NCBI GenBank assembly: GCA_031292625.1
Contig: JARLGU010000008.1
Coordinates: 1-64,000 of the forward strand
Direction of reading: 5' to 3'
Origin: Capsulimonadaceae bacterium
Lineage (GTDB): Bacteria > Armatimonadota > Armatimonadia > Armatimonadales > Capsulimonadaceae
DNA length: 64,000 nt
Shown piece after piece: positions 8,125 to 52,832 of the stretch. Each line of letters opens with the position of its first letter. Position 1 is the first letter of the stretch. Below the pieces are notes generated by a model. The model ran no database searches. It was not told the DNA's origin and saw only the letters and a list, made by a program, of their open reading frames with translations. A program made the translations under genes and the position numbers.

Positions 8125-8169
8125 TACATTATTCGCAAAACGCTCATCCAGATGCGAGCGGTTGTTGGA

Positions 8170-9942
8170 TCAAGGAACACTCGACGGCGCAGGCGCATTG
8201 ATCGGAATGAATACAAAGTTCGCGTCGGAGCTAATTGTCGGCGACGCATGGCATGCCCGCACGAGCGCCCGCGCTTGAGACAATGTCCAGGCGCTGCCGC
8301 CCAAATAGCGCGTGTCGATAATAATCGCCCGGAACCCCAGCTTCGAGAGCGCCGCAACGAAACCGGACACATCCGTTGGAAGAAGCCCCTGCCAGTCGTC
8401 AGCGCCCGTTCCTCGAATGGCGCCGTACGAATAGCGAACGTGATGCGTGTGCAAATACGGCCGGAACTCGTCATAGTCGCCAAGTCCGGCGACCGTCCCC
8501 TCGGGATACGGAATATACGGAAAGTTGTAGACCATCGCTCCCGGCGGCAGGCTCGCATCGATTACCCGTCCAAACTGCTCGTCCGAGAGGTATCGGCGCA
8601 CGTACGGATTAGGCGCTGCGAAACTCGCCGGGGACTGGTCGTACGCGCCTAGCACGACGATCGGGATCCATGCCAGCGCCGCCAAGAGCGGCTGCGCCCC
8701 TCGCTTTTCCCACATCGTGGCGAGCTGGTCGGCAACCATCCCCAACGCGCAGAGGCTGCAGAACGAGATGAAGATCGACACGCGATTGAGGGATCGGAGC
8801 AATCCGGCGGGCAGAAACACCGTCGATGTCGCGGAAAGCCCGCCGATCATGCACCAGAGCAGCGCGATATAAATCGCCACGCTCAGAATGAGCCTGCGGC
8901 GGAACGTGATTCTCAATGGACGCACGAGCGGCGCAGCAAGCAACAGAATGAAGCCTATCGTTCCCGCCGCGCCAAGCGCGGCACAGCCGTTCTCATTCGT
9001 AATGTCCGGCAGCATTGACTTATCGAACTTGTCTCGCAGCTTGGCGAGCGCCGCTATGCGGTGTCCGGTCACGGGCAAGACCATCTGCGCGATGGTCAGC
9101 CCGTACTTCTCAACCTCGTTTGGCTGACGGATTACGCTCTTCTCGACGCCATTCCTTGAGGTGTTTGTCAAATACGTCATCGAACAGACGGCAAGTGATG
9201 CAATCATTACCGCGCAAAAGACCAGAGCGCTGAGGAAGATCGTTACCCGCCGCGATCCCATTGCGGCGACCAGCGCGGATGCGCCGACAAGCACTGCTGT
9301 AATGCCGCAATAATAGACGCCATTTACCCCGCAGAGAACCGCCATAACGGCATATTCCACTGCCGACGATAGCGCGGGCCAGCCCCGCTCGCGGATCCGG
9401 CGAACGACATCAGCCCGTCCAGCTTGAATGTCGTGCAGCAAAAGAAATGTTAGCGGAACGGAATAATAGACGGACAAGCCTAGATGCCGTTCAAAACGCA
9501 GGAAATGGTATGGTGCGAACGCAAAAAGGATGCCGATGGCGGCGCTCGTCGCCGGGCGAAGCCCAAGTTTGAGAGCAACGTAAGTGCACACGCCTGCCGC
9601 GAGGGGAAAGGACAGTACGAAGAGCCAGTTCATCGCGAACGCTGGAACAGGATGCGCGGCAAGGAGCAGCCATATCACCAGGTTAGTCAGTCGATTCGTG
9701 ACCTGGAAATTGGGTACAGCGCAGGAGTTTTGCCCTGCGGGGATGCCAACATTCGGATTGAAATCGACCGAACCTGTCTCGACGAATCCTTTAAACTGAG
9801 ACAGTATGGCCAATGCGTCGTGTTGATATTCAAATGGCTTGTCGAACCCGGCCTGGAAAACACTCGTAAGGGCGGGCAGCGCCGCCAGTGCGACCATGCA
9901 CGAAAGGGTAATTGGCAAGAGAAATTTGCGGTGCGGAGCCAT
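8170..9942 (-). CDS. Polytopic membrane protein, GT-C-like, paralogue 3 of 4
   Basis: About 590 residues from the ATG at 9942 (MAPHRKFLLPITLSC), chosen because GGAG lies 9 nt upstream. An in-frame ATG at 9984, right after GAGAGGTATA, would give 604 residues. It shows the family pattern: signal anchor, loop motif PFEYQHDALAILSQFKG...DFNPNVGIPAGQ, hydrophobic segments with LFAFAPYHFLRFERHLGLSVYYSVPLTFLL, and the soluble C-terminal GLGDYDEFRPYLHTHHVRYSYGAIRG domain ending FVFIPIN. It forms a subpair with paralogue 4. The segment 8574-8870 is almost identical to 10493-10789, a likely gene-conversion tract. Confidence 0.8.
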   Translation of the reverse strand: MAPHRKFLLPITLSCMVALAALPALTSVFQAGFDKPFEYQHDALAILSQFKGFVETGSVDFNPNVGIPAGQNSCAVPNFQVTNRLTNLVIWLLLAAHPVPAFAMNWLFVLSFPLAAGVCTYVALKLGLRPATSAAIGILFAFAPYHFLRFERHLGLSVYYSVPLTFLLLHDIQAGRADVVRRIRERGWPALSSAVEYAVMAVLCGVNGVYYCGITAVLVGASALVAAMGSRRVTIFLSALVFCAVMIASLAVCSMTYLTNTSRNGVEKSVIRQPNEVEKYGLTIAQMVLPVTGHRIAALAKLRDKFDKSMLPDITNENGCAALGAAGTIGFILLLAAPLVRPLRITFRRRLILSVAIYIALLWCMIGGLSATSTVFLPAGLLRSLNRVSIFISFCSLCALGMVADQLATMWEKRGAQPLLAALAWIPIVVLGAYDQSPASFAAPNPYVRRYLSDEQFGRVIDASLPPGAMVYNFPYIPYPEGTVAGLGDYDEFRPYLHTHHVRYSYGAIRGTGADDWQGLLPTDVSGFVAALSKLGFRAIIIDTRYLGGSAWTLSQARALVRACHASPTISSDANFVFIPINAPAPSSVP

Positions 9943-10082
9943 CCGAGCATTCTCCATTGGAGGGTACCAAAGCTTGTCCGCCATTATACCTCTCTACATT
10001 GAGGTCCGCTGGACGGACGGCGCGAGCGCGGTTTGCAGTCTATCTAAACCGCGCAAGCCAGGCGGCAGATCAACGGAGCGGA

Positions 10083-11852
10083 TCAACGTAAACGCGCAGG
10101 CGCTTCAACAAGAGTATTAATCGGAATGAATACAAAGTTTGCGTCGGAACTGACGGTCGGCGATGCATGACATGCCTGTATGAGCGCTCGCGCTTGAGGC
10201 AATGTCCAGGCGCTGCCGACCAAGTAGCGCGTATCGAGAACGATCGCCCGAAATCCTAGCTTCGAGAGCGCCGCGACGAAACCGGACACATCGACCGGCA
10301 GCCGGCGCTGCCAGTCGTCAGCGCCGGTTTCCCGAATGGCGCCGTACGAATAGCGAACGTGATGCGTGTGCAAATACGGCCGGAACTCGTCATAGTCGCC
10401 GAGCCCCGTGATCGCTCCCTCCGGATATGGAACGTACGGAATGTTGTAGATCATTGCTCCCGGCGGCAGGCTTGCGTCGATCACCTGCCCAAACTGCTCG
10501 TCCGAGAGGTATCGGCGCACGTACGGATTAGGCGCTGCGAAACTCGCCGGGGACTGGTCGTACGCGCCTAGCACGACGATCGGGATCCATGCCAGCGCCG
10601 CCAAGAGCGGCCGCGCCCCTCGCTTTTCCCACATCGTGGCGAGCTGGTCGGCAACCATCCCCAACGCGCAGAGGCTGCAGAACGAGATGAAGATCGACAC
10701 GCGATTGAGGGATCGGAGCAGACCGGCGGGCAGAAACACCGTCGATGTCGCGGAAAGCCCGCCGATTGTGCACCAGAGCAGCGCGATATAGACGACCAGG
10801 CTCAGGATCATCCGCTTGCGGAAGACGATTTGCAGAGAACGCACGAATGGCGCAGCAAGCAACAGGATGAAGCCAATCGTTCCCGCCGCGCCAAGCGCGG
10901 CCATGCCATTCTCGTTCGTAATCTCCGGCAGCATCGACCGGTCGAACTTGTCGCGCAGCTTAGAGAGCGCCGCAATGCGGTGCGCGGGAGTCGGCAGGAT
11001 CATCTGCGCAATCGTCAACCCGTACTTCTCCACTTCGGTCGGCTTCCGAATCACCGTGTTCGCTACGGCGTGGCGGGCGGGGTTCGTGAGAAACGGAACG
11101 GAGCAAAGCCCAAGCGTCGCGACCATGATCACACTGAAGGTCAAGCCACTGAGAAAGACGCTGAGCTTGCGCGTGTCCAGGGCCGACACAAACGTCGTAC
11201 CGGCGATGAGAACCGTCGGGATCAGGCAGTAGTATATGCCGTTGATTCCGCAAAGGATCGCCAGCGCGACGTAGCCGAACGACGGAGCCAACGCTCCCCA
11301 GCCGCGCTCGCGGATCCTCGCGACGATGTCCGCGCGGCCGGACCGGATGTCGTAGAGCAAGAGAAACGTAAAAGGAACAGAGTAGTAGATCGATAGGAAA
11401 ATGTGCCGCTCGCAGCGCAAAAAATGATACGGCGCGAACGCAAAAAGGATGCCGATGGCGGCGCTTGTCGCGGGACGAAGTCCAAGTCTCAGGGCAACGA
11501 AGGTTGCCGTGCCGGCCGCCAGCGGAAACGATAGAATGAACAGCACGTTCAGCACGATCGCCGGGTTGGGATCAGTCGCGGCAATGAGCTTTTCGAGAAC
11601 GTAGTCCAGGTCGTCAACAAAAGGTAAGGAACGCAAGTTCTGGCCCGCGGGCGCTCCGACGTTCGGGTTATGCGTAACCCACCCAGTCTCGATCAAACCC
11701 TTATACTGCGCCAACATCGCGAGTGCGTCATGCTGGTACTCGATCGGCTTGTCGAGTCCCGCCTGGTATACGTTCGTAATGGCGGGCAGCAACAGCAGGG
11801 AGACGACGCATGAGAGAACGATTAAGTAGAGAAATGTGCGGCGCAAAGCCAT
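10083..11852 (-). CDS. Polytopic membrane protein, GT-C-like, paralogue 4 of 4
   Basis: About 589 residues from the ATG at 11852 (MALRRTFLYLIVLSC), which has GGAG 9 nt upstream. The alternative ATG at 11894 follows GGAGGTATA and gives 603 residues. The open frame continues upstream only because element A copy 3 happens to be open, so that extension is not real coding sequence. Loop motif PIEYQHDALAMLAQYKGLIETGW...NPNVGAPAGQ; helices with LFAFAPYHFLRCERHIFLSIYYSVP; soluble C-terminal domain with GLGDYDEFRPYLHTHHVRYSYGAIRE. First gene of the four-gene array in transcription order. Role unknown, probably transfer or flipping of a glycan or lipid-linked sugar at the envelope. Confidence 0.8.
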   Translation of the reverse strand: MALRRTFLYLIVLSCVVSLLLLPAITNVYQAGLDKPIEYQHDALAMLAQYKGLIETGWVTHNPNVGAPAGQNLRSLPFVDDLDYVLEKLIAATDPNPAIVLNVLFILSFPLAAGTATFVALRLGLRPATSAAIGILFAFAPYHFLRCERHIFLSIYYSVPFTFLLLYDIRSGRADIVARIRERGWGALAPSFGYVALAILCGINGIYYCLIPTVLIAGTTFVSALDTRKLSVFLSGLTFSVIMVATLGLCSVPFLTNPARHAVANTVIRKPTEVEKYGLTIAQMILPTPAHRIAALSKLRDKFDRSMLPEITNENGMAALGAAGTIGFILLLAAPFVRSLQIVFRKRMILSLVVYIALLWCTIGGLSATSTVFLPAGLLRSLNRVSIFISFCSLCALGMVADQLATMWEKRGARPLLAALAWIPIVVLGAYDQSPASFAAPNPYVRRYLSDEQFGQVIDASLPPGAMIYNIPYVPYPEGAITGLGDYDEFRPYLHTHHVRYSYGAIRETGADDWQRRLPVDVSGFVAALSKLGFRAIVLDTRYLVGSAWTLPQARALIQACHASPTVSSDANFVFIPINTLVEAPARLR

Positions 11853-11930
11853 TCGATCATTCTCCATTGGAGGGTACAGGCGCTTGCCCGACATTATACC
11901 TCCGCGGAATTCACCCGGTCGCCGGAAGCG

Positions 11931-12145
11931 TGTTTCAAGACGGCTCATGCCGCCGGGGCATTTTTTCGCGCGCGCCTCGGTCACGGCGGCGATCTACGAA
12001 GCCACGTCGACACGCGTACGGCCTTTTGCCGCCAGCGTCCGATCCCAGCACAGATCGTTAAGCGGTGAAAGCGCTGTGACGGCCCTTTTTCAAAAACGGC
12101 CACGGCGGCCGCGGAGCCTCTTACAAGACCTCCCGAATCTTACGC
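11931..12145 (+). repeat. Element A copy 3 (plus orientation)
   Basis: Runs from TTTCAAGACGGCTCATGCCGCC through ACACGCGTACGGCC, GAAAGCGCTGTGACGGCCC and the TTTTTCAAAAACGGCC hairpin to GCGGAGCCTCTTACAAGACC. It lies about 12 nt beyond the murG stop codon (murG is on the minus strand, so the element is antisense to it) and upstream of paralogue 4. Confidence 0.85.
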
Positions 12146-12157
12146 ACTCTCTAACGA

Positions 12158-13339
12158 TCAGCGGCCCGCCCGCGCGGTTTCGACGACTAGCTTCGCCAGG
12201 TCGCGCGCTGCATGCGGGCGTGCAAGGGTCCTTGCCGCTTCTCCCATTCTGCGAAGCTGGGCGGGATGGTCGAGCAGCTTGACGATCGCGTCGCGCAACG
12301 CGGGCCCGCTTAGCGAGTCCTGGGCGAGAATGGCTGCCGCGCCGGCATCCGCCAGGCGCTGCGCGTTTCGCCGCTGTTCGTCGCCGCCGGTCGGAACAAG
12401 GGGGATGAACAGGGCGGCCTTCCCGAGCGCGCAGACCTCGGCGACCGTTCCCGCGCCGCTGCGCGCCACGATCAGGTCAGCGAGGGCGTAGACGTCGCCG
12501 ATTTCCGGACCCACAAACTCCACCGCATGGTAGCGCGATCGCAGCTCTTCGGGAAGGGCCACGACCGTGGCGTTGAGCAAATCGATGTCCTGCTGATCGC
12601 CAGGCTGGCGGCCGCATTGATGGATCACCCGGCAATGGGCAAGCAGTTCTCCGGCGCACTCGCTCACGGCAACATTGATTACGCGCGAACCTTTCGCGCC
12701 GCCGGTTATGTAGATAGCCGGCAGATCGTGGTCGGCGGAGACGAACCCCGCCCAGGTCGCCGCGCGTTCAGCAATGCCGTCCATGAACCCGTCCGTTCGG
12801 ACGGGGTTTCCGGTCACGACGCTGCGCGCGCGTTGTGAGGGGCCAAGGCATTCCGCCGTTTCCGGGTACGAGAGCGCGATCCTGGCGGCGCGGGGCATGA
12901 CAATCTTGTTCGCCAGCCCAATCTGCACCGTCTGCTCGTGCGCCACGACGGGAATGCGTCTCGCCTGAGCCGCAAGGGCGGCTGGGACGCACACGTAGCC
13001 TCCCGTGGAGAATACGACGTTCGGACGAAAACGGGCGACCGCGCGAGCGGCCTGGTTGATGCCGATCGGAACGCGGGCGAGGTCGGCGATATTGGCGCGG
13101 TTGATCATGCGGACCGGATTGGCGCTGCGCCGGAGCTTGCCAGTCTTAATCGCCTCGAAATCGATGCCGGCTTCCTCGGCGAGTTTCTGCTCGACGCCGC
13201 TCTCGCTGCCGACATAGAGGAACACCGGCTTCCACGTGCCGTCTTCCAGGGCGAGTTCACGGATGGCCTTCGCGGTTGCGATCGCAGGGACTGCATGTCC
13301 GCCCGTGCCGCCGCCGGTTATAAGTATGCGTAAATCCAA
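12158..13339 (-). CDS. murG: UDP-GlcNAc:lipid I N-acetylglucosaminyltransferase MurG
   Basis: A 393-residue protein from a TTG start at 13339, preceded by GAAGAGG 7 nt upstream; no ATG or GTG is suitably placed, and the first residues give the canonical LDLRILITGGGTGGHAVPAIATA. Other landmarks are FSTGGYVCVPAALAA, VVAHEQ, the ITGGAKGSRVIN donor loop and the C-terminal ARSGAGTVAEVCALGKAALFIPLVPTGGDEQRRNA motif for UDP-GlcNAc binding. It completes lipid II on the cytoplasmic face. It is about 30 residues longer than typical MurG and is the last gene of this dcw segment. The usual murC/murB/ftsQ follow-on is absent: element A and the unrelated membrane array come next. Confidence 0.95.
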   Translation of the reverse strand: MDLRILITGGGTGGHAVPAIATAKAIRELALEDGTWKPVFLYVGSESGVEQKLAEEAGIDFEAIKTGKLRRSANPVRMINRANIADLARVPIGINQAARAVARFRPNVVFSTGGYVCVPAALAAQARRIPVVAHEQTVQIGLANKIVMPRAARIALSYPETAECLGPSQRARSVVTGNPVRTDGFMDGIAERAATWAGFVSADHDLPAIYITGGAKGSRVINVAVSECAGELLAHCRVIHQCGRQPGDQQDIDLLNATVVALPEELRSRYHAVEFVGPEIGDVYALADLIVARSGAGTVAEVCALGKAALFIPLVPTGGDEQRRNAQRLADAGAAAILAQDSLSGPALRDAIVKLLDHPAQLRRMGEAARTLARPHAARDLAKLVVETARAGR

Positions 13340-13380
13340 AACGATGCCTCTTCGAGGACGTTCGCGGCGATCCCGGCGCG

Positions 13381-14601
13381 TTACGGCTTTTGCCCGTACT
13401 CCGGTCGCGAAAGCGTTGTCCCGCGGTTCCATCGTCGATCGAAATCTCGCTCCGGCGCAGCATCCTCGCGCGCCGCGCGGCCGTCGTCGCGATCCGAGTA
13501 GCGATAGATGCTGAGCAAGATGCCGACGCAGACCAGGGACACGAACAGAGACGATCCGCCGAAAGAAATGAACGGAAGCGGCACGCCGGTTGCGGGGACC
13601 GAGCTGGTGACGACGCCGATGTTGAGCAGGGCTTGGACGCCAAATCCGGCCGAGATGCCGCCGGCGAGAATGGCGGCGAACGGATCTTTCGTGAGCGTGG
13701 CGATATGCAGGCCTCTTGTTACCAGGAGGCACAACAGAGCCAGGACGCTGATGCTGCCGATGAGGCCGCCCTCCTCCGCTACCGTGGCAAAGATAAAGTC
13801 CGTGTGAGCCTCCGGCAAGTAATATTTCTGAATGCCGTTGCCGACGCCCAGTCCTCCGATGCCGCCTGTTCCGAGAGCGATCATCGAGTGATAGACCTGA
13901 TAGCCCTCATCGGTGTGATTGCGGTCTGGGTGGAGGAAAACTTGCAGTCGCGCGCCGCGATAGCCGGGCGAGGCGTGACTGCCGCTCTTGAGCATCACCA
14001 CGCAGAGAATAAGCGCGCACGCAATCGCGCCGACGGCGAAGAAGTGGCTGATCCGCATGCCCGCGAAGAATAATGCTCCCAGCCCTGCGCCGACAACGAC
14101 GAGGCAGGTTCCAAGGTCTGGTTCGCGTTCGATCAAGAAGGCAAGCACGGCCAAGACCAGCAGCGGGATGAGCGGACCGCCGACGAAATCCTTCATGATC
14201 TTGGGCCGCCCCGCGCACAGCCGGGCGACGTAGAGCACGATCGCGAGTTTGGCAAGCTCGGATGGTTGAACGTGAAGAACCCACCGGCGCGCCCCTTTGA
14301 TTTCCTGTCCGATGTGCGGGATAAACACCGCGATGAGCCCCACGACGGTAATCATGATGAGCGGAAGCGCGGCGGTTTCCCACTTTCGGACGGGTATTCG
14401 CATGACCACGAGCATCACGGCGGTGCCAAGGATCGCGGAGAGCGCCTGTTGGCGAACGAATTTAAATGGGCTGATGTGAACCTGGAGCGCATGGACGTAA
14501 GAGGCATCGAAGACCATCAAAATGCCTATGCACGTCAGCAGCAGAACCACAGTCAGCAAGAAAAAATCCGTGTTCGATTTCGTCGATGCGCGCGTTGTCA
14601 T
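13381..14601 (-). CDS. ftsW: Lipid II polymerase/SEDS protein FtsW
   Basis: A 406-residue SEDS-family protein with about ten membrane spans. Landmarks: LLTCIGILMVFDAS in helix 1, GARRWVLHVQPSELAKLA, LIEREPDLGTCLVVV, GYQVYHSMIALGTGGIGGLGVGNGIQKYYLPEAHTDFIFATVAEEGG, and the C-terminal TGVPLPFISFGGSSL signature. It polymerises glycan strands at the division septum with its partner PBP (the penicillin-binding protein at 20153-22120). The start codon overlaps the murD stop by 4 nt (ATGA), and murG follows 41 nt downstream, consistent with one transcript. FtsW is preferred over RodA from its dcw position. Confidence 0.94.
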   Translation of the reverse strand: MTTRASTKSNTDFFLLTVVLLLTCIGILMVFDASYVHALQVHISPFKFVRQQALSAILGTAVMLVVMRIPVRKWETAALPLIMITVVGLIAVFIPHIGQEIKGARRWVLHVQPSELAKLAIVLYVARLCAGRPKIMKDFVGGPLIPLLVLAVLAFLIEREPDLGTCLVVVGAGLGALFFAGMRISHFFAVGAIACALILCVVMLKSGSHASPGYRGARLQVFLHPDRNHTDEGYQVYHSMIALGTGGIGGLGVGNGIQKYYLPEAHTDFIFATVAEEGGLIGSISVLALLCLLVTRGLHIATLTKDPFAAILAGGISAGFGVQALLNIGVVTSSVPATGVPLPFISFGGSSLFVSLVCVGILLSIYRYSDRDDGRAAREDAAPERDFDRRWNRGTTLSRPEYGQKP

Positions 14602-15923
14602 GTGTGCTCCTCGTCGAGAGCCGCCAGGTTGCGGACGAGTTGTTTAAACTGGTCGCCGCGATCCTCGAAATCGCGAAATTGATCGAACGATGCGCAAGCC
14701 GGATTCAGGATAACCGTGTCGCCCGTTCGGGACAGAGCCGACGCAGCCGCGAACGCCTCCGTCAGCGTCCCGGTTCGCTGCACGCGGTCGAACCCGCGCT
14801 CGCGAACGGCTTCCTCGAGCGCCGGAGCGGATCTGCCGAAAAGCACGAGTTGCCTGATTGAAGGGTCGCCGGTCGCGGCGTCGATCAGGTCCGTCATGTC
14901 GCCGCCCTTATAAACGCCGCCCGCGAGGACGATCTTTGGACCGGGAATGGCCTCCAGCGAGCGGGCGAACGCCACGTTATTGGTGCACATTGAATTGTTG
15001 ATATAGCGGACGCCGCTCACGCTCGCGACCCACTCAAGGCGGTGGATCACTCCGGCGAACGTCGTCGCGGCGCGCTGTATGGCATCCGGCGAGATCCCGG
15101 CGGCGCGAGCCATGCAGGAGGCCGCGAGGACGTTTTCAATATTGTGTTCGCCGGGCAGAAGGATCTCGTGCATCCATTCCTGGCGCGGTTCCTGGTCGAA
15201 ATAGATCGTTTCGGGACCCGAAGCGCTCATGGCGCCAATCGGCGGTTGGGGCACGTCGGACCGCAGCACGAGCACGTCCCCGTGGTTCTGGTGAGCGGCG
15301 ATGTTCCACTTGGCGCTGACATATTCATCCCACGTCTGCCGGTCCAGGTGGTCGATGGCGATATTAAGGATCGCGGAGACGCGCGGCCGGAAGGATGGCG
15401 TCCATTCGAGTTGAAACGACGAAATCTCGGCGACGATCAGAGCCTCGGGCGAGGCCTTGTCCGCCGCGTGGATCAACGGCATCGCGATGTCGCCCGCCGC
15501 AATATTGCCGGCGACGTACGTCTCGCGTCCGTCGGCGCGCGCCATCTCTCCCAGGAGCGCCGTCGTCGTCGTCTTGCCGTTCGTACCCGTGATCGCGAGG
15601 ATGGGCGCCTTGCTAATCCGGTAAGCCGCTTCAATTTCGCCCCAGATCGGAATGCCGCGCGCGTTGGCATCCACAAGCACCGCCGCCGTGCGGCGGACGC
15701 CGGGGCTGGTCACCACGATGTCCACGTCGCCGACCCGATCGGTTGCGGGATGCGCCGCGACGCGCGCATTCTTCGCCCACGCCAGCGCATCGGCCAGTTT
15801 CTCCGGCGCTCCGGAATCGTAGAGCGAAACATGCGCCCCGCGCGCCGCCAATACTTTGGCAGCGGCTAGTCCGCTGCGCGCCATGCCGATAACGGCTATT
15901 CGTTTGTTTTTGAACTGTTCCAT
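14598..15923 (-). CDS. murD: UDP-N-acetylmuramoylalanine--D-glutamate ligase MurD
   Basis: A 441-residue Mur ligase from the ATG at 15923 (MEQFKNKRIAVIGMARSG); a TTG start at 15962 would add 13 residues. It adds D-glutamate to UDP-MurNAc-L-Ala in the cytosol. Domain 1 has the Rossmann-like RIAVIGMARSGLAAA; the ATP-binding loop reads ITGTNGKTTTTALLGEM (about residue 110); NNSMCTNNVAFARSLEAIPGPKIVLAGG and VILNPACASFDQFRDFEDRGDQF are typical MurD signatures of the C-terminal domain. It sits between mraY and ftsW, overlapping ftsW by 4 nt, in conserved dcw order. Confidence 0.95.
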   Translation of the reverse strand: MEQFKNKRIAVIGMARSGLAAAKVLAARGAHVSLYDSGAPEKLADALAWAKNARVAAHPATDRVGDVDIVVTSPGVRRTAAVLVDANARGIPIWGEIEAAYRISKAPILAITGTNGKTTTTALLGEMARADGRETYVAGNIAAGDIAMPLIHAADKASPEALIVAEISSFQLEWTPSFRPRVSAILNIAIDHLDRQTWDEYVSAKWNIAAHQNHGDVLVLRSDVPQPPIGAMSASGPETIYFDQEPRQEWMHEILLPGEHNIENVLAASCMARAAGISPDAIQRAATTFAGVIHRLEWVASVSGVRYINNSMCTNNVAFARSLEAIPGPKIVLAGGVYKGGDMTDLIDAATGDPSIRQLVLFGRSAPALEEAVRERGFDRVQRTGTLTEAFAAASALSRTGDTVILNPACASFDQFRDFEDRGDQFKQLVRNLAALDEEHT

Positions 15924-19890: not shown

Positions 19891-19944
19891 ATTATTGATA
19901 CGCTTTATGTGAGCGTGCGTAATCGACGGGCGCACCGAGAATCA

Positions 19945-20150
19945 GATTCAGGACGGCTCGTGCCGCCGGGGCAATTTTTTGCCCGCGCCTCGTTCACGGC
20001 GGTGATTTACGATGCTTCGTCAACACGCGTACGGCCTTTTGTAGCTAGCATCCGATTCCAACGCACATCGCTAATCGGTGAAAGCGCTGTGACGGCCCTT
20101 TATCAAAAACGGCCACGGCGGCCGGGGAGCCGTCTAACAAGACCTTTCTT
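19945..20150 (+). repeat. Element A copy 4 (inside dcw cluster)
   Basis: Begins GATTCAGGACGGCTCGTGCC, contains TTTGCCCGCGCCTCGTTCACGG, ACACGCGTACGGCC and GAAAGCGCTGTGACGG, and ends GGAGCCGTCTAACAAGACC. It lies 2 nt past the PBP stop codon, antisense to it, and about 55 nt before murE. A dcw transcript would have to read through its long stem. Confidence 0.88.
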
Positions 20151-20152
20151 TT

Positions 20153-22120
20153 TTAGGCCGTTTTATGGTGCGTCTTCGCGTGAGATCGATGCTCCCGCGG
20201 CTGATCGGGCTTGGTCGTTTTCTCTGGTTCGGTTGTCTTCTCTTGTTTTACCGGAGCGACGGCTGCAGGCGCGTTGTCATCCGTTTTGACTTTATTCCGG
20301 TCCGCATAGTCGAGCTTGCCGGGAGCGTCCCGCACAACGTTCATGTACCAGAGGGACTGCTGGGCGACATCGTGGACGACAGGCGCGGCGACGACCGCGC
20401 CCCAGTGGACGCCCTGCGGCTTGTTGACGGTACACAGAATGACCAATCTCGGATTGTTGAGCGGGGCGATACCGCAGAAGGAACCGATGTATTCTCCGCC
20501 ATAGTGTCCGTGTTCCGCAACCTGCGCGCTACCGGTTTTGCCGCCGATATTGTAGCCCTCAATCTGCGCCGGCTTGCCTGTGCCTTCCTCGACTACGGTT
20601 TGCAGCATTGAAAGAAGCGCCTTGGCGACCTCAGGTTTGATGATTCGTTTGGGCGGATCCTGCGGCAGCATGCCCTTTACAATATGCGGCGTGATGTGCA
20701 TTCCCCCATTCGCGAACGTGCAGTATGCCGCGGCGAGCTGGACTGGGGTCACGGAGATGCCCTGGCCGAATCCGACGTTGGCAAGCTGGATGAGCGACCA
20801 CGGCTTGACATCCGGCGAGCGAAGGTGGCTATGCTGTACGCCAGGCAGACCGATCTGCGGCCTGTCCAAGAAGCCGAATGCCTTTTCGTATTCGTAAAGC
20901 TTATTCGCGCCCAGGTGCATTGCATATTGCGCGGCGCCGATGTTGCAGGAGTTCTTGAGCACGGCCCGCATGTCCTCGTCGCCGTGGACGCCATAGGTCG
21001 GCGGGTCCTTTGCGCAGTGCACGACGTGGTTGCCGATCTGAATCTGGCCCGAGCAATGCACATGGTGGTTCTGCATGTCGAGCCCCTGAGCGTCCAGAAC
21101 GGCAGCGAGCGTCACCGATTTGAGCGTCGATCCTGGTTCGTAGAGATCGGAAACCGCACGATTATCCCATTGCTGGTACGTGGTGCCTTTCAAGACGTTG
21201 GGATTAAAGACCGGCATGTTGGCGATCGCGAGGACCTCCCCGGTCTTCGGATCGATTACGACGCAGCTTCCGCTTTCCGCGTGGTGGTCGGTGACTGACT
21301 TCGCCAACGCTTGCTCGGCATAACGTTGAATGTTCACGTCGATCGTCAGCTGAATGTCATCGCCATTCTTGGCGTCGACGCGCCGGATTTCGGTCCCCGG
21401 GATGTCGCGCCGGTGCGCATCGGTTGTGGTTACCGTGTAGCCGTCATGTCCGGCAAGGGCGGCGTTCATCGATTTTTCGATGCCGTATTCGCCAACGTCG
21501 AGGCCGTTTTGCTTTGTTAGGAACCCCACAGTGTGGCAGGCGAGCGTTCCTTTCGGGTAGCTGCGGACCCACCGGGTAACGACGGACGATCCGGTGAGGT
21601 TGACAGGTTGCTTGGCATCCTTGATATGCGCGGCCTTTTCCGCCGCGAATTGGTCCTGGTACTGCTGGATGTGCTCATATGAGACGCCATGCGCGAGCAT
21701 GATGAAGCGGATCTTTTTGCCGGCGGGGGTTGTGCGCTGCTGTGCGCCCGCGATCCGAGCGGCGATGGCGTCCGCGGCCTGGCCTGGGAGGAACTTGACG
21801 ATGTCGGCAGCGAACGCCGCGGGATCCTTTATGACGAGAGGGTCGGCCGCGACATCGCCGACAGCGACATTGATCGCCAGGGGGACGCCATTGCGGTCGA
21901 CGATGATTCCGCGCTGACTGAGCAAGATCGTCTTGTGGTCGCGGATTTTCTTCGCTTCTGCTTGATAGTAACCGTGCTTGACGACTTGAATGTACGCCAG
22001 TCTGAGCGCAAGCGCCACAAACAAGCAGGTTACTATAAAAAATCCAAACCGGACGCGCTGACGGATAATATTCCGATGCAGGCGCATCCGGTCGGATGCA
22101 TAATCAATTCTTACACTCAT
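20153..22120 (-). CDS. Penicillin-binding protein 2/FtsI-type division transpeptidase
   Basis: A 655-residue class B PBP. The ATG at 22120 has GGGAG 6 nt upstream. It has a basic N-terminus and one membrane anchor (about residues 24-46), a PBP dimerisation domain (about 65-250), and a transpeptidase domain with SxxK as S331-T-L-K334, SxN as S391-C-N393 and KTGS at 528-531. The C-terminal 35 residues are lysine/proline/histidine rich; no PASTA domains are present. It cross-links septal peptidoglycan in the periplasm with FtsW. Position between ftsL and murE is standard for ftsI/spoVD. Element A copy 4 begins immediately after its stop codon. Confidence 0.93.
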   Translation of the reverse strand: MSVRIDYASDRMRLHRNIIRQRVRFGFFIVTCLFVALALRLAYIQVVKHGYYQAEAKKIRDHKTILLSQRGIIVDRNGVPLAINVAVGDVAADPLVIKDPAAFAADIVKFLPGQAADAIAARIAGAQQRTTPAGKKIRFIMLAHGVSYEHIQQYQDQFAAEKAAHIKDAKQPVNLTGSSVVTRWVRSYPKGTLACHTVGFLTKQNGLDVGEYGIEKSMNAALAGHDGYTVTTTDAHRRDIPGTEIRRVDAKNGDDIQLTIDVNIQRYAEQALAKSVTDHHAESGSCVVIDPKTGEVLAIANMPVFNPNVLKGTTYQQWDNRAVSDLYEPGSTLKSVTLAAVLDAQGLDMQNHHVHCSGQIQIGNHVVHCAKDPPTYGVHGDEDMRAVLKNSCNIGAAQYAMHLGANKLYEYEKAFGFLDRPQIGLPGVQHSHLRSPDVKPWSLIQLANVGFGQGISVTPVQLAAAYCTFANGGMHITPHIVKGMLPQDPPKRIIKPEVAKALLSMLQTVVEEGTGKPAQIEGYNIGGKTGSAQVAEHGHYGGEYIGSFCGIAPLNNPRLVILCTVNKPQGVHWGAVVAAPVVHDVAQQSLWYMNVVRDAPGKLDYADRNKVKTDDNAPAAVAPVKQEKTTEPEKTTKPDQPREHRSHAKTHHKTA

Positions 22121-25163: not shown

Positions 25164-25405
25164 GTGTGTAATATACTGGCGTATTGCGAGAAGGATTCAG
25201 GACGGCTCATGCCGCCGTGGCATTCTTTCGCTCGCGCCTCGTTCACGGCGGTGATTCACGATGCCTCGTCAACACGCGTACGGCCTTTTGTCGGCGGCGT
25301 CCGGACCCAGCGCACATCGTGAAGCAGTGAAAGCGCTGTGACGGCCCTTTTTCAAAAACGGCCCCGGCGGCCGGGGAGCCGTCTTACAAGACTTTTCGAT
25401 TTTTC
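25164..25405 (+). repeat. Element A copy 5 (complete)
   Basis: Complete copy with the extended left end GTGTGTAATATACTGGCG, GATTCAGGACGGCTCATGCC, ACACGCGTACGGCC, GAAAGCGCTGTGACGGCCC, the TTTTTCAAAAACGGCC hairpin and GGAGCCGTCTTACAAGAC. It is followed after about 100 bp by deleted copy 6, so it is the distal member of a tandem pair. Confidence 0.88.
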
Positions 25406-25503: not shown

Positions 25504-25650
25504 TGTGTGTAATAAACTGGCGTATTGCGAGAAGGATTCAGGACGGCTCGTGCCGCCGGGGCAATTTTTTGCCCGCGCCTCGTTCACGGCGGTGATTTGC
25601 GTTGCCTCGTCAACCGGGGAGGCGTCTTACAAGACTTTTCGATTATTTCA
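25504..25650 (+). repeat. Element A copy 6 (internal deletion)
   Basis: The left end (TGTGTAATAAACTGGCGTAT to GCCTCGTCAACC) is fused directly to the right end (GGGGAGGCGTCTTACAAGAC); about 100-130 bp of the interior is missing. The right end lies about 7 nt past the rsmI stop codon, antisense. Confidence 0.85.
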
Positions 25651-30682: not shown

Positions 30683-30926
30683 GGTTTGTAATAAACTGGC
30701 GTGTTGCAAAAAAGATTCAGGACGGCTCGTGCCGCCGGGGCAATTTTTTGCCCGCGCCTCGTTCACTGCGGTGATTTACGTTGCTTCGTCAACACGCGTA
30801 CGGCGTTTGTAGCTAACGTCCGATAGCAGCACGTATCGCGAATTCACGAAAGCGCTGCGCCTGCCCTTTTTCAAAAACGGCCCCGGCGGCCGGGGAGCCG
30901 TCTTACAAGGCCTTTCGATTTTTTCA
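30683..30926 (+). repeat. Element A copy 7 (between trpB and trpA)
   Basis: Complete ends: GTTTGTAATAAACTGGCG, GATTCAGGACGGCTCGTGCC, then GGAGCCGTCTTACAAGGCCTTTCG. A 1-2-nt deletion after ACACGCGTACGGC disrupts the frame seen in other copies. The right end is about 7 nt past the trpB stop codon, antisense to it. Confidence 0.88.
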
Positions 30927-30933
30927 CGCTTTC

Positions 30934-32172
30934 TTAGATTTTGAGCAGCTCGGCGACGGTGTCGACATCCTTATCGCCGCGTCCGGATAGGCTTACGAGA
31001 ACGATTTGGTCCTTGGGCAGATTGGGCGCAAACTTGCGCACGTACGCAAGGGCGTGCGAGGATTCCAGGGCAGGGATGATGCCTTCCATCCTTGCGGTCC
31101 ACTGGAATGCGTCGAGCGCCTCTTGGTCCGTAACGGTAACGTACGACGCGCGTCCGATCTCTTTCCAGTAGGCGTGCTCCGGTCCAACGCCCGGATAGTC
31201 CAGTCCGGCGCTTACTGAATGCGTCGGCATGACCTGTCCGTACTCATCTTGGAGGACGAACGAATGCGATCCGTGCAGGACGCCCTCGCTGCCAGCGGTG
31301 AGCGTTGCCGCATGCTCGCCGGTCTCGATCCCGCGTCCGGCGGCCTCGACGCCGATCAGCTTGACGGATTCATCGCGTACGAACGGATAGAACATGCCCA
31401 TGGCGTTGGATCCGCCGCCAACGCAGGCGATGACGTGATCCGGGAGGCGCCCTTCGTCGTTCAATATCTGTTTGCGCGCTTCCTCGCCAATGACCGCCTG
31501 AAAGTCCCGGACCATTACGGGATATGGGTGCGGTCCCGCGACGGTCCCGATGATGTAATGCGTGTTGCGAATATTGGTGACCCAGTCGCGCATCGCCTCA
31601 TTCAGCGCGTCCTTGAGGGTTTTGGTGCCGCTTTCGACGCTCACGACCGTAGCGCCCAGAAGGCGCATGCGGACGACGTTGAGGTGCTGGCGGATGATGT
31701 CTTCCGCGCCCATGTAAACGACGCACTCGCAGCCGAAGCGGGCGCAGACGGTTGCCGTCGCAACGCCGTGCTGGCCAGCGCCGGTCTCCGCGATAATGCG
31801 CGGTTTGTTCATGCGGCGCGCGAGCAGGATTTGGCCAAGCGCATTATTGATCTTGTGGGCGCCCGTATGCGCGAGATCCTCTCGCTTGAGGTAAATCTTC
31901 GCGCCGCCCAGTTCGGCGGTCATTTTCTCGGCGAAATAAAGGGGAGTGGGACGGCCAACATAGTGCGCCGCGATGAAGTTGAACTCTTTCCAAAATTCGC
32001 GATCGCTGCGCGCTTCCTCGTAGACGGCCGTTAGCTCGTCCAGGGCGGGAACGAGAGTTTCGGGAACGAAGCGGCCTCCGAAACGACCGCCAAACCGGCC
32101 CAGTTGATCGGGAGCGTACTCATCCTCGGCAACCTGAGCGGCGCCGCTCGCGTTCTCTGCTTTCACACTCAT
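30934..32172 (-). CDS. trpB: Tryptophan synthase beta subunit
   Basis: A 412-residue PLP enzyme joining indole and serine. PLP lysine motif [20 protein letters not shown], then [40 protein letters not shown], the phosphate-binding [13 protein letters not shown], and a C-terminal [15 protein letters not shown]. The N-terminal 20 residues form an extra alanine/glutamate-rich tail before [20 protein letters not shown], where the usual GRFGPFGGRF is replaced by a triple GRFG-like repeat. SD-like AGAGGG precedes the ATG. Element A copy 7 lies just beyond the stop codon and before trpA. Confidence 0.96.
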
Positions 32173-35780: not shown

Positions 35781-35916
35781 GTGTAATACATCGAAAGGCC
35801 TTTTAAGACGGCTCCTCGGCCGCCGTGGCCGTTTTTGAAAAAGGGCCGTCAGAGCGTTCGCGGCTTCACGATGTGCGCTGGGATCGGACGATGGCGGCAA
35901 AAGGCCGTACGCGTGT
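35781..35916 (-). repeat. Element A copy 8 (truncated, minus orientation)
   Basis: Its right-hand half is intact (GTGTAATACATCGAAAGGCC, the GAGCCGTC-containing stem, GGCCGTTTTTGAAAAAGGGCCG, and the block up to GTACGCGTG). The left half is missing. The intact terminus sits 3 nt past the stop codon of the isomerase-like gene, antisense. Bases 35917-36032 hold nothing recognisable apart from GGGACC-type short repeats. Confidence 0.82.
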
Positions 35917-36032: not shown

Positions 36033-37679
36033 CTACTTGGCGATGGTCGCCGAGACGATCGTGTCGCCGACTTGCAGCCTATCGGCGATGTCCAGGCCCT
36101 TGATAACCTGCCCAAACACGGCGTAGTTGCCATCGAGGAACGGGACGGGATCGATGCAAATGTAGAATTGGCTTCCAGCGGAATTCGGCTCGTTGGTGCG
36201 CGCCATGGCGACGGCGCCTTTGGTGTGCCTGAGCGGATTGTCGACGCCGTTGGACGTAAACTCACCCTTGATCGTCCAACCGGGTCCGCCCGAACCATCA
36301 CCCCTGGGATCGCCGCCCTGGACGATTTTGCACGTTTCGTGCTGCGGATCGAGGTTGGTAATCCTGTGAAACGTCAGGCCGTTGTAGAACTTATTACTGA
36401 CGAGCCTCAGGTAGTTGGCCGTCGAGATCGGCGCTTGCTTCGGGAAAAGCTCGATCAGTATTTTGCCGAGCGGCTCGCCGTTATGGGCCACAGCAAGCGC
36501 CACGACGGGATTGCCGTCGACTGCGGTAGGGTACGGTTCAGGCGATTCGTTAGGCTGCTGGGGTTGCGGCAACCTGTCGAGAGAGAAATCGAGCGTCGCA
36601 TTGCCGCCTCGCGATAGCGTGACTTGCTTGGCGCGCGTCTCGTAACCCGCAGCCGAAACATCGACTTCGACCGTCTTGCTCTTAGCCTCGCCGAGATCCA
36701 GTGTAACGGTTGACCCCGCAGTCGCAGAGCGGCCGTCGACAAGGACTTTTGCGCCAGGAGTTGCGCAGGACACGGTCAGTGTCGCGGTCGTCGCAATATC
36801 CGTGATTATGGGCGTTGTTGCATTCGCGACTGGCACGAAGTAAAAGTTATCGTTAAGCAAGCCGTCATAATCGAATGGATACTGGTCGTGATTGCTGCGG
36901 TCGTAAACCGAAGCGCGCGTGTTCTGGAACACCTGATGAATGTTGAGACCAGGCGTTTTCAGGTTCTTGAGGAGTTCCTGCGTAAAGAGACCGTTCGATT
37001 CTCCGGGGTTATCCGAGGCGGTCTTGCCTTCGGCCGTCGCGTAGGAGATGTACACCCCCTGGGCTTCCAAGCGGCCCAAGCCTCGGCCGCCCCAGGCGCG
37101 GGTGCCCTCGAATGGATTGTTGCGGCAGGCGTCGAGGATGACGATGTTCACTCGAGCGCCCGCGGACTGCATTTCGTCGAGCGCCTTCTGAGCCGAATAC
37201 GCGTAATCGTCAACGTCTTGTTTGTTCTTGAGGCCCTCGAACCCAATCGGGATTAAATAGTTCTTTCCGTCGACCTGCATCCCGTGGCCAGAGTAATAGA
37301 ACAACGCCACCGTGCCGGATCCGGACTGACTGACCGCGCCGCTGAAGTCGTGAACCGAATCCCTGATGTTCTCTCGGGTGGCATCGAGTACCAATGTGAC
37401 CGTGAAGCCCAACGATTGCAGCGTCCGGGCCACGGCTTTGGCATCGTTTTCGGGATTCGTGAGCTCGTTTGCGCCGCCGTAGTGAGTGTTGCCGATCACG
37501 AGCGCAAAGCGATGCTCGCCAGTGACCGGCGAGGCTACTCCGCTCAACACGATGCGGCGCGCCGGGGACTGTGCAAACGCCGTAAGCGGCGCAAGCAGGA
37601 GCGCGATGCAACAGCCTAACGCAACTAACGCCCAACCAGATAGGCTGAGCGTTAGAGGTTTAATCGCCTTATTCGACAT
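36033..37679 (-). CDS. Exported caspase-like (C14) - PEGA - cyclophilin fusion protein
   Basis: A 548-residue protein with an N-terminal hydrophobic export segment (about 15-36, ending AFAQ). A caspase-fold domain (about 55-285) has RFALVIGNTHYGGANELTNPENDA, the catalytic His132 in FYYSGHGMQ and Cys185 in ILDACRNNPF, so both dyad residues are intact. A PEGA-type beta domain (about 300-368, TLTVSCATPGAKVLVDGRSATAGSTVTLDLGEAKSKTVEV) and a proline-rich linker (371-388) lead into a complete cyclophilin peptidyl-prolyl isomerase domain (391-548, FHRI, GSGGPGWTIKGEF, AGSQFYICIDPVPFLDGNYAVFGQV). The last domain is strongly similar to the stand-alone cyclophilin next door, so it probably arose by duplication and fusion. 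Presumed periplasmic or surface located; substrate unknown. Confidence 0.88.
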   Translation of the reverse strand: MSNKAIKPLTLSLSGWALVALGCCIALLLAPLTAFAQSPARRIVLSGVASPVTGEHRFALVIGNTHYGGANELTNPENDAKAVARTLQSLGFTVTLVLDATRENIRDSVHDFSGAVSQSGSGTVALFYYSGHGMQVDGKNYLIPIGFEGLKNKQDVDDYAYSAQKALDEMQSAGARVNIVILDACRNNPFEGTRAWGGRGLGRLEAQGVYISYATAEGKTASDNPGESNGLFTQELLKNLKTPGLNIHQVFQNTRASVYDRSNHDQYPFDYDGLLNDNFYFVPVANATTPIITDIATTATLTVSCATPGAKVLVDGRSATAGSTVTLDLGEAKSKTVEVDVSAAGYETRAKQVTLSRGGNATLDFSLDRLPQPQQPNESPEPYPTAVDGNPVVALAVAHNGEPLGKILIELFPKQAPISTANYLRLVSNKFYNGLTFHRITNLDPQHETCKIVQGGDPRGDGSGGPGWTIKGEFTSNGVDNPLRHTKGAVAMARTNEPNSAGSQFYICIDPVPFLDGNYAVFGQVIKGLDIADRLQVGDTIVSATIAK

Positions 37680-37752
37680 AAAGAACCTACTCGTGTGTCC
37701 GCAATACGAACGTCGTATGCACCGCGTCCATCCAGGGATGTGAGCGATCGAC

Positions 37753-38337
37753 CTACTTGGCGACAGTCGCCGTTACGATCTTATCGCCAACCGCAAGCTT
37801 GTTCGCGATGTCCAGGCCTTTGATAACCTGCCCGAACACGGCGTAGTTGCCATCGAGGAACGGGACGGCATCGACGCAGATGTAGAATTGGCTTCCCGCG
37901 GAGTTTGGCTCGCCGGTGCGCGCCATTGCGACTGCGCCCTTTTTGTGCTTGAGCGGGTTGTTGACGCCGTTGGACGTAAACTCGCCCTTGATCGTCCAGC
38001 CGGGCCCGCCCGATCCATCGCCCTTGGGATCGCCGCCCTGGACGATCTTGCCGGCGCCGTGTTGCTCATCGAGGTTGGCAATCCGGTGGAACGTCAGGCC
38101 GTTGTAGAACTTGTTGTTGACGAGCTTCAGGTAGTTGGCCGTCGAGATCGGCGCTTGCTTCGGGAAAAGCTCGATCAGTATTGTGCCTAACGGCTTGCCT
38201 TCATGAGCGACATTTAAGATTACGACAGGGTTCGACGCGGTCTTCGTTTTGGCGGCGGCTGCCGGCTGAGACACGACGGTCGCAACGGCGCACAAGACGG
38301 CAACGCTTGTCGCAATGGAGCGGAACAAATCCTTCAA
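37753..38337 (-). CDS. Exported cyclophilin-type peptidyl-prolyl cis-trans isomerase
   Basis: A 194-residue protein with a signal peptide (about residues 1-28, ending QPAAAA) followed by a single-domain bacterial cyclophilin: KPLGTILIELFPKQAPISTANYLKLVNNKFYNGLTFHRI, KIVQGGDPKGDGSGGPGWTIKGEF, GAVAMARTGEPNSAGSQFYICVDAVPFLDGNYAVFGQVIKGLD. The arginine in FHRI and the QGGDP, SQFYI and FGQV elements are typical of active enzymes. It should assist folding of exported proteins. It is 73 bp upstream of, and co-directional with, the caspase-PEGA-cyclophilin gene, whose C-terminal domain it matches almost residue for residue. Confidence 0.93.
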   Translation of the reverse strand: MKDLFRSIATSVAVLCAVATVVSQPAAAAKTKTASNPVVILNVAHEGKPLGTILIELFPKQAPISTANYLKLVNNKFYNGLTFHRIANLDEQHGAGKIVQGGDPKGDGSGGPGWTIKGEFTSNGVNNPLKHKKGAVAMARTGEPNSAGSQFYICVDAVPFLDGNYAVFGQVIKGLDIANKLAVGDKIVTATVAK

Positions 38338-38384: not shown

Positions 38385-40100
<1,716 letters not shown>

Positions 40101-40117
40101 CAGGCGGAAGGCAAATC

Positions 40118-40338
40118 AGGGCGATCGCATCTACAACTGTTAGCAGCGGCGCGAGTCCGGTCCTGAAAGGGCCGGCCTGTGTTGAGAAAGCCCGTGAACG
40201 GGCCTAATCGGTAGACGGCCTGCATTTTGTAAGGCGGCAGCCCCATTGATGGAGCTTGACATCTCAGGACGGTCGTTAACGGCCGGAAACCGCGCCAATA
40301 TCGGTGACAATCGTTGATATTAGTATATGCGGTCCCCC
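40118..40338 (+). mobile_element. Element B copy 1 (221-bp MITE-like element)
   Basis: Begins AGGGCGATCGCATCTA and ends in a diverged inverted copy. It contains the shared hairpins CCGGTCCTGAAAGGGCCGG and GCCCGTGAACGGGC and ends near an AATATC/GATATT stem. It is flanked by GGAAGGCAAAT (11 of 13 positions match, 40105-40117 and 40339-40351), read as a target-site duplication. It carries no transposase. Confidence 0.88.
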
Positions 40339-40353
40339 TGGAAGGCAAATAAG

Positions 40354-48147: not shown

Positions 48148-48465
48148 GTGTAATAGCTCTGCATGGTGTGAGGAGATTTCAGGACGGCTCGTGCCGCCGG
48201 GGCATTTTTTTGCCCGCGCCTCGTTCACGGCGTCGATCAACAATGCTTCGTCAACACGCGTACGGCCTTTTGCCGCCATCGTCGGCCGGTCACGGACCGG
48301 TCTCGCTCGCGCCTCGTTTATGGCGGTGATTTACGATGCCTCGCCAACACGCGCACATCGTTTTGCCGCCATCGTCCGATTCCACCGCACATCGTTAAGC
48401 AGTGAAAGCGCTGTGCCGACCCTTTCCCAAAAACGGCCACGGCGGCCGGGGAGCCGTCTTAAAGG
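48148..48465 (+). repeat. Element A copy 9 (with internal duplication)
   Basis: Starts GTGTAATAGCTC 7 nt after the RNase J stop codon, sense orientation. The segment CGCGCCTCGTTCACGG through GCCGCCATCGTC is present twice (about 48213-48282 and 48310-48380), making this copy about 95 bp longer than normal. It ends GGAGCCGTCTTAAAGGG. Confidence 0.88.
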
Positions 48466-48480
48466 GCAGCTGAGAAAGCG

Positions 48481-48718
48481 AGCCATCAATCGGCATTGCG
48501 AGAAAGATTCAGGACGGCTCGTGCCGCCGGGGCATTTTTTCGCCCGCGCCTCGTTCACGGCGGTGATATACGATGCCTCGTCAACCCGCGTACGGCCCTT
48601 TGCCGCCATCGTCCGATTCCAGCGCACATCGTTAAGCAGTGAAAGCGCTGTGCCGACCCTTTTCCAAAAACGGCCACGGCGGCCGGGGAGCCGTCTTAAA
48701 AGGCCTTTCGATTTCTTT
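48481..48718 (+). repeat. Element A copy 10 (complete)
   Basis: Tandem to copy 9. It has the extended left end CATCAATCGGCATTGCGAG and intact terminal complementary arms (GACGGCTC with GAGCCGTC; GCCGCCG with CGGCGGC), and is taken as the reference copy. Confidence 0.9.
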
Positions 48719-48894
48719 ATGCTCGTTTTCAGCGCGAGAAGATTACGAGGGTCGCACACCACGTTTTGCAATGAAGCGCCGTCTTCGGCGAGCGAAAAAC
48801 GGCCAGCCCGGCCATAAGAGGGGATCCTGAATCGTACAAAGTGCAATCCCCCCGCAATGAGAGGTCCGCGCCATCTCCAGGACGTCGGTTGGCA

Positions 48895-52097: not shown

Positions 52098-52109
52098 TCC
52101 ATCACGACC

Positions 52110-52330
52110 AGGGCGATCGCATCTATACCTGTTAGCAGCGGCGCGAATCCGGTCCTGAAAGGGCCGGCCTGTGTTGAGAAAGCCCGTGAACGGGCCTCAT
52201 CGGTAGACGGCCAGCGTTTTCGTGAGCCGGCAGCCCGATTGATGGGACTTGATATCTCAGGTTGGTCGTTCACGGCCGCAAACCGCACAAATATCGGTGA
52301 CAATCGTCGATATGAGTAGATGCGATTACC
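52110..52330 (+). mobile_element. Element B copy 2
   Basis: 221 bp. The left terminus AGGGCGATCGCATCTA and the right terminus TAGATGCGATTACC are inverted repeats. It is flanked by TCCATCACGACC at 52098-52109 and 52333-52344, a 12-bp direct repeat interpreted as the target duplication. It has the same internal hairpins as copy 1 and is about 90% identical to copy 3. Confidence 0.92.
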
Positions 52331-52344
52331 CTTCCATCACGACC

Positions 52345-52598: not shown

Positions 52599-52611
52599 TG
52601 GGCATAACGCC

Positions 52612-52832
52612 AGGGCGATCGCATCTATACCTGTTAGCAGCGGCGCGAATCCGGTCCTGAAAGGGCCGGCCTGTGTTGAGAAAGCCCGTGAACGGGCCTC
52701 ATCGGTAGACGGCCAGCGTTTTCGTGAGCCGGCAGCCCGATTGATGGGGCTTGACATCTCAGGACGGTCGTTCACGGCCGGAAACCGAGCCAATATCGGT
52801 GACAATCGTTGATATTAGTAGATGCGATTACC
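52612..52832 (+). mobile_element. Element B copy 3
   Basis: 221 bp with the same terminal inverted repeats as copy 2. It is flanked by a perfect 13-bp direct repeat, TGGGCATAACGCC (52599-52611 and 52833-52845), which fixes the element boundaries precisely. Confidence 0.94.

Follow-up and report, generated by a model that had tools for sequence, protein, structure and literature searches.

A predicted exported orthocaspase-PEGA-cyclophilin fusion encoded beside the apparent parental cyclophilin gene in a Capsulimonadaceae bacterium

A minus-strand gene of a Capsulimonadaceae bacterium (36033..37679; coordinates refer to the window, that is, the whole 64-kb stretch of DNA that was analyzed) encodes a 548-residue fusion of a putative exported orthocaspase, a PEGA domain, and a cyclophilin. 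A history in which a cyclophilin gene was duplicated in tandem and one copy was joined to a caspase-PEGA gene, as an earlier sequence-only reading of the locus had proposed, is well supported by the comparisons given below. As to function, we tentatively favor an exported orthocaspase cutting after Arg or Lys, with the cyclophilin as a tethered module that would bind or fold its clients and PEGA as a positioning domain. Little is known of what bacterial caspases do, and a foldase domain with a traceable adjacent donor provides a concrete lead; with the donor gene, the junction, and the product still side by side, the locus is also a well-preserved case of domain gain by an orthocaspase.

Structure of the fusion gene

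The fusion is encoded by a single uninterrupted frame of 548 codons, free of internal stops, and all its parts lie on the minus strand. Residues 1-36 (37572..37679), with their lysines, a hydrophobic run, and an AFA-Q cleavage motif, were read from the sequence as a predicted Sec signal sequence. The p20 caspase domain follows (residues 57-278, 36846..37511), recognized by the Pfam Peptidase_C14 profile (E 5.7e-40, 137.9 bits against a cut-off of 21.4) and by comparison with MALT1. The dyad residues His132 (37284-37286) and Cys185 (37125-37127), named earlier for the intact caspase fold, are present at these positions and invariant in alignment A2.

Past residue 285 the chain consists of PEGA and then cyclophilin, both in Pfam and in the AlphaFold2 model. 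The PEGA match (residues 299-368, 36576..36785) is marginal (23.1 bits; cut-off, 20.8); the assignment is supported by the beta strands of the model and by 54% identity to the PEGA domain of a caspase encoded on contig C59 of the same genome. Next come Arg369 and a proline-rich linker, predicted to be disordered (residues 369-390, 36510..36575); the linker contains neither Lys nor Arg, and Arg369 is the sole basic residue at its edge, on the N-terminal side. The cyclophilin module (residues 390-548 and the stop codon, 36033..36512) was delimited by Pfam, alignment, tree, dN/dS, and BLASTN. It contains a Pro_isomerase match at residues 401-540 (E 1.4e-35) and appears complete, as judged by Pfam, by similarity to the solved structure 2mvz (E 3e-27), and by the strands and helices of the model. 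The PEGA domain and full cyclophilin that had been noticed by inspection of the letters are thus both matched by Pfam in one continuous frame.

A frameshift or assembly error near residue 385, which had been named as one possible refutation of the fusion, left no sign. Although the assembly is fragmented into 65 contigs, an assembly error or a decaying pseudogene at the junction is extremely improbable, and an artifact of assembly or frameshift was rejected as a candidate explanation: no break occurs in the frame, the cyclophilin part of the fusion is intact and evolves under purifying selection, the homology with the neighboring cyclophilin starts past the proline-rich linker, and 73 of the 480 sites differ between the two copies, ruling out a collapsed or chimeric duplicate in either.

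Origin of the cyclophilin module

The stand-alone exported cyclophilin described earlier as lying 73 bp upstream was found at 37753..38337, on the same strand. This twin encodes 194 residues, has a TTG start preceded by an AAAGGAG site, and was assigned by its Pfam cyclophilin match, gene order, and tree position; its end is separated by 73 bp from the start of the fusion. The close match between the C-terminus of the fusion and the twin is a single ungapped block of 160 codons that starts at Asn390, directly after the linker, and runs exactly to the stop codon. Within the block the nucleotide identity is 84.8%, with 102 identical codons, 33 synonymous changes, and 25 amino-acid changes, and the BLASTN match within the window has E 2e-155, far beyond chance.

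A maximum-likelihood tree of 44 cyclophilins from the phylum groups the two copies as sisters (support 100/99) inside a family-level clade, and they share a 5-residue insertion (AHNGEPL/AHEGKPL) that the orthologues lack. In a relative (G001), pyrG is likewise followed by the orthologous cyclophilin gene, both having the same orientation. Since this gene order is conserved, the twin is, on comparative grounds, the parental copy, and the fused cyclophilin derives from the gene next door. Phylogeny, DNA identity, and selection therefore all bear out the originally proposed tandem duplication and fusion. Two further tandem duplications are present in the window (4630-6140 with 6620-8130, 82% identical DNA; 8197-9992 with 10116-11902, 77%), indicating that duplication of gene-length segments is common in this stretch.

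The divergence between the copies (dN 0.10, dS 0.45, dN/dS about 0.22) implies that the fused one is old enough to have decayed, yet it is intact, and by this measure it is under purifying selection since the duplication. When changes were polarized with five orthologues, 10 amino-acid changes fell to the fusion and 5 to the twin, with 10 unresolved; the somewhat larger number in the fusion would agree with either an altered role or a relaxed constraint. The branch lengths (0.15 vs 0.015) suggest that the fused copy evolved ten times faster, but these counts do not uphold this. Recent gene conversion is no more than suggested by a stretch of 18 identical codons in a row (p 0.009 in a shuffling test).

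The caspase and PEGA domains

Among proteins of solved structure, the closest relatives of the p20 domain by sequence are the MALT1 paracaspases (E 1.1e-12), and the best fold match is again to MALT1, whose caspase domain aligns over 221 residues (Z 27.8, rmsd 3.0, 24% identity). MALT1 residues Asp365, Asp462, and Glu500 form a pocket for Arg (PMC4357240), and they are aligned with Asp79, Asp183, and Asp223 of the fusion. As all three acidic S1 residues are kept, the predicted cleavage by the fusion protease is on the C-terminal side of Arg or Lys, the specificity of orthocaspases in general (PMC5756287, PMC6426788). In MALT1, too, the caspase domain is followed by a small beta domain (Ig3), but the match of this second domain is loose (rmsd 7.6-8 in the two-domain alignment), and the fusion is an exported bacterial protein with PEGA in place of the Ig and death domains; Pfam found in it none of the death and Ig domains of the type I paracaspase MALT1.

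With bacterial orthocaspases (MEROPS C14, p20 only) the fusion shares the p20 domain, the DACR motif, the His/Cys dyad, the acidic S1 pocket, and the C-terminal placement of an extra domain; it differs from them in its cyclophilin partner, absent in the relatives and literature examined. It is probably an active exported caspase of the p20-only (orthocaspase) type.

The caspase-PEGA part has a composite history of its own. In the p20 tree the fusion belongs to a widespread clade in which Pseudomonadota, Desulfobacterota, and Bacteroidota are represented, and it is separated from the caspases of the same genome on contigs C59 and C48 (100/99); within the clade, its sister relationships are weakly supported, and several of the branches are long. 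Compared with the C59 caspase (L094), the PEGA domain is 54% identical and the p20 domain only 28%. In the other caspase-PEGA proteins that were compared, conservation of PEGA does not clearly exceed that of p20: the identities to the fusion are 43% (p20) and 25% (PEGA) for L107, 39% and 37% for L113, and 27% and 32% for L118. Judged from these identities, the fusion gene is a three-way mosaic whose caspase-PEGA part is itself mosaic, and the simplest reading would be recombination between caspase genes, either before or after the cyclophilin was added.

A C14 domain followed by PEGA or a PEGA-like domain is also found in the exported proteins L107 (genome G591), L094, which represents the caspase-PEGA chassis in the same genome, and L093 (G008). 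L094 and L093 continue into a further C-terminal part, as does the fusion. In place of cyclophilin, however, the C-terminal module of these proteins is absent, unassigned, or, in L093 (caspase/PEGA-like/FGE-sulfatase), an FGE-sulfatase. L107 (G591:C96:14800-17800), from a Desulfobacterota sample genome, is a compact exported caspase-PEGA protein of 373 residues with a strong PEGA match (E 6.8e-20).

Eight C14 matches were found in this genome, against a single match in one of the six other genomes of the family, pointing to an expansion of caspases in this lineage. A remnant on contig C25 (L095, about 12300-12580) consists of a signal sequence and the start of a p20 domain very similar to those of the fusion (SPVTGKYRLALVIGNSRYDGANELVNP), after which the frame breaks. 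The surrounding region (G000:C25, about 12300-15080 and 18400 onwards) is rich in caspases: after the remnant come a papain-like gene and several caspase genes, of which one has WD40-like repeats. The genome also encodes three exported caspases that belong to a single subfamily, L094 on C59 (G000:C59, 1060-2958) and two adjacent genes of L096 on C48 (G000:C48, 3031-4731 and 4913-6433); their N-termini are similar, and their C-terminal regions differ.

The cyclophilin pocket and the linker

Alignment with solved cyclophilins places the human cyclophilin A (CypA) residues Arg55, Gln63, Gln111, and Leu122 at Arg439, Gln454, Gln504, and Leu515 of the fusion. CypA Phe113, Trp121, and His126 correspond to Tyr506, Phe514, and Tyr519, replacements of a kind that occurs in bacterial cyclophilins. 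The positions of Phe60 and Met61 are occupied by Lys451 and Ile452, and Lys451 adjoins a seven-residue loop insertion. Thus the domain resembles the exported PpiA-like cyclophilins in its complete fold and in the four conserved residues (Geobacillus cyclophilin 2mvz is 38% identical in the fold match), but differs from them by the loop insertion and Phe60->Lys, which the twin and most family orthologues also have, and by its attachment to a protease.

Both changes are common to the twin and, among the six other genomes of the family, to the orthologues in five, while the Phe60 equivalent is kept as Phe in G004 and outgroups. The lysine hence predates the fusion and is uninformative about it. 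Lys451 could weaken isomerase catalysis, and since both copies carry the replacement, isomerase activity cannot be assumed. The orthologues L087, L088, L089, L091, and L092 represent this family-level loop insertion with Phe60->Lys as a natural variant.

In the AlphaFold2 model, built from the 18-row alignment A4, pLDDT is mostly 80-95 in p20, about 75 in the beta-rich PEGA domain, and mostly 70-96 in the cyclophilin. The linker, for which a structure prediction had been suggested, is predicted to be disordered at residues 371-387 (pLDDT below 50); given these values and a pTM of 0.50, the relative placement of the domains is undefined. The model contains no contact between domains and gives no support to a cyclophilin docked rigidly on the protease.

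A disordered linker between folded domains suggests a tether. In the proposed scheme, the neighboring exported cyclophilin gene was duplicated, and the copy was joined in frame, via the proline-rich linker, to the 3' end of a caspase-PEGA gene. The product would be an exported orthocaspase cutting after Arg or Lys, which PEGA may position in the cell envelope; the cyclophilin would bind or fold proline-containing or partly unfolded secreted proteins and deliver them to the protease. The appendage points to folding, or to proline-containing envelope proteins as substrates. Against this tethering view, Lys451 could weaken catalysis despite the four conserved pocket residues, the model places no domain in contact with another, many bacterial C14 proteins carry accessory domains without a demonstrated role, and the arrangement was seen in only one of the genomes searched.

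The same linker is compatible with a less probable but serious possibility, that the attached cyclophilin is either a passenger or an additional supply of a secreted foldase, the halves acting independently and the caspase perhaps releasing the cyclophilin at Arg369. The length, disorder, and Lys/Arg-free composition of the linker, with Arg369 at its N-terminal edge, and the identical pocket residues of the fused and free copies agree with this, as does the fact that fusion after tandem duplication can be neutral. On the other hand, the fused copy has remained intact, with purifying selection acting across a dS of about 0.45; the polarized counts, as noted above, are open to either a changed role or weaker constraint.

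Two other possibilities involve catalysis by the cyclophilin. The domain may act on the protease itself, isomerization of prolines in the linker or caspase switching the enzyme on; the linker is indeed proline-rich, and AvrRpt2, a protease of a plant pathogen, needs a cyclophilin that licenses its autoproteolysis (PMC11475232). We consider this unlikely, since AvrRpt2 is of another peptidase family (C70), related orthocaspases without a cyclophilin keep an intact dyad, Phe60 of the pocket is replaced by Lys, and no conserved proline site can be defined from one sequence. Quite unlikely, too, is an isomer-selective envelope protease in a single chain, in which the cyclophilin would isomerize prolines of the substrate or of the protein itself before the caspase cuts; the presence of Phe60->Lys throughout the clade and a disordered linker without defined packing weigh on such proline-isomer-dependent cleavage, which the sequence-only reading had offered alongside a substrate-binding role for the isomerase. 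If the isomerase did control cleavage, the fusion would couple prolyl isomerization to proteolysis in compact form.

Distribution of the architecture

The sequence-only reading knew of no characterized protein with this domain order, and none was found here in the searched genomes, plasmids, or literature. A scan of contigs from about 85,000 species genomes with six peptide patterns produced, among the matches listed, 40 loci, all of which encode C14 proteins without a cyclophilin in frame. Among the matches listed, the C14-PEGA-cyclophilin order occurred in none of the 290 other genomes of the phylum, 297 sampled Desulfobacterota genomes, or 385 sampled Alphaproteobacteria genomes, in searches that scored three to four candidates per genome and were not exhaustive; several long open frames with a cyclophilin from the phylum search were checked by Pfam. 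Nor did any of 72,556 plasmids, among the matches listed, cover 80% of the fusion query. The architecture, which could have proved widespread, is so far a single case. The words isomerase and PEGA are absent from the main text of two surveys of prokaryotic metacaspases. An apparent PEGA-cyclophilin intermediate in G005 (match to 283-547) was rejected, its upstream part being of low complexity and overlapping another, longer open frame.

Orthocaspases typically carry variable C-terminal accessory domains (PMC5756287; PMC3501461), and in the larger of the two surveys, 33 of the 71 Pfam domain types found with the prokaryotic metacaspase domain were seen once (PMC3501461), so that a one-off accessory domain is the usual pattern. 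The caspase-PEGA-cyclophilin order, absent from all other genomes searched, fits the one-off C-terminal domains that orthocaspases often have; the same frequency of singletons also agrees with a passenger cyclophilin. Other multidomain proteins of the phylum end in a cyclophilin, with Cu_amine_oxidN1, PD40, SurA/parvulin, and Big_2 as partners (L098 1790-3712, L099 2063-4132, L101 2597-5248, and L104 1470-2936), and appending a cyclophilin is thus a recurrent solution there.

Genomic context and repeats

Upstream of the twin, pyrG, encoding CTP synthase (38385..40058, minus strand, Pfam), is separated from it by 47 bp. The three codirectional genes pyrG, twin, and fusion could form a single transcription unit; no sigma70-like promoter was found at the locus, and neither a promoter nor a clear terminator splits or joins the genes.

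Caspase-like proteases occur in some defense systems, and the generic caspase model of PADLOC matches the fusion (E 2.4e-18). Nevertheless, an effector of cell death or anti-phage defense with the cyclophilin as a sensor is very unlikely, because the protein has an export signal, its gene adjoins the housekeeping pyrG, a scan of the adjacent genes turned up no defense gene, and the PADLOC match may reflect the shared caspase fold alone.

A dispersed repeat about 240 bp long is represented directly after the stop codon of the fusion by a partial copy (35790..35916, minus strand), with a terminator-like hairpin inside, reported on the plus strand. Copies 80-90% identical were found at 168-416, 11934-12152, 19915-20166, 25164-25404, 30684-30938, and 48303-48729, and another partial copy at 25505-25647; across the genome, at least 51 matches were scored from 239 first-look candidates. 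No Rfam match was obtained anywhere in the window. Another repeat family, with copies of about 220 bp that are 89-95% identical, occupies 40117-40339, just upstream of pyrG, as well as 52100-52332 and 52603-52832.
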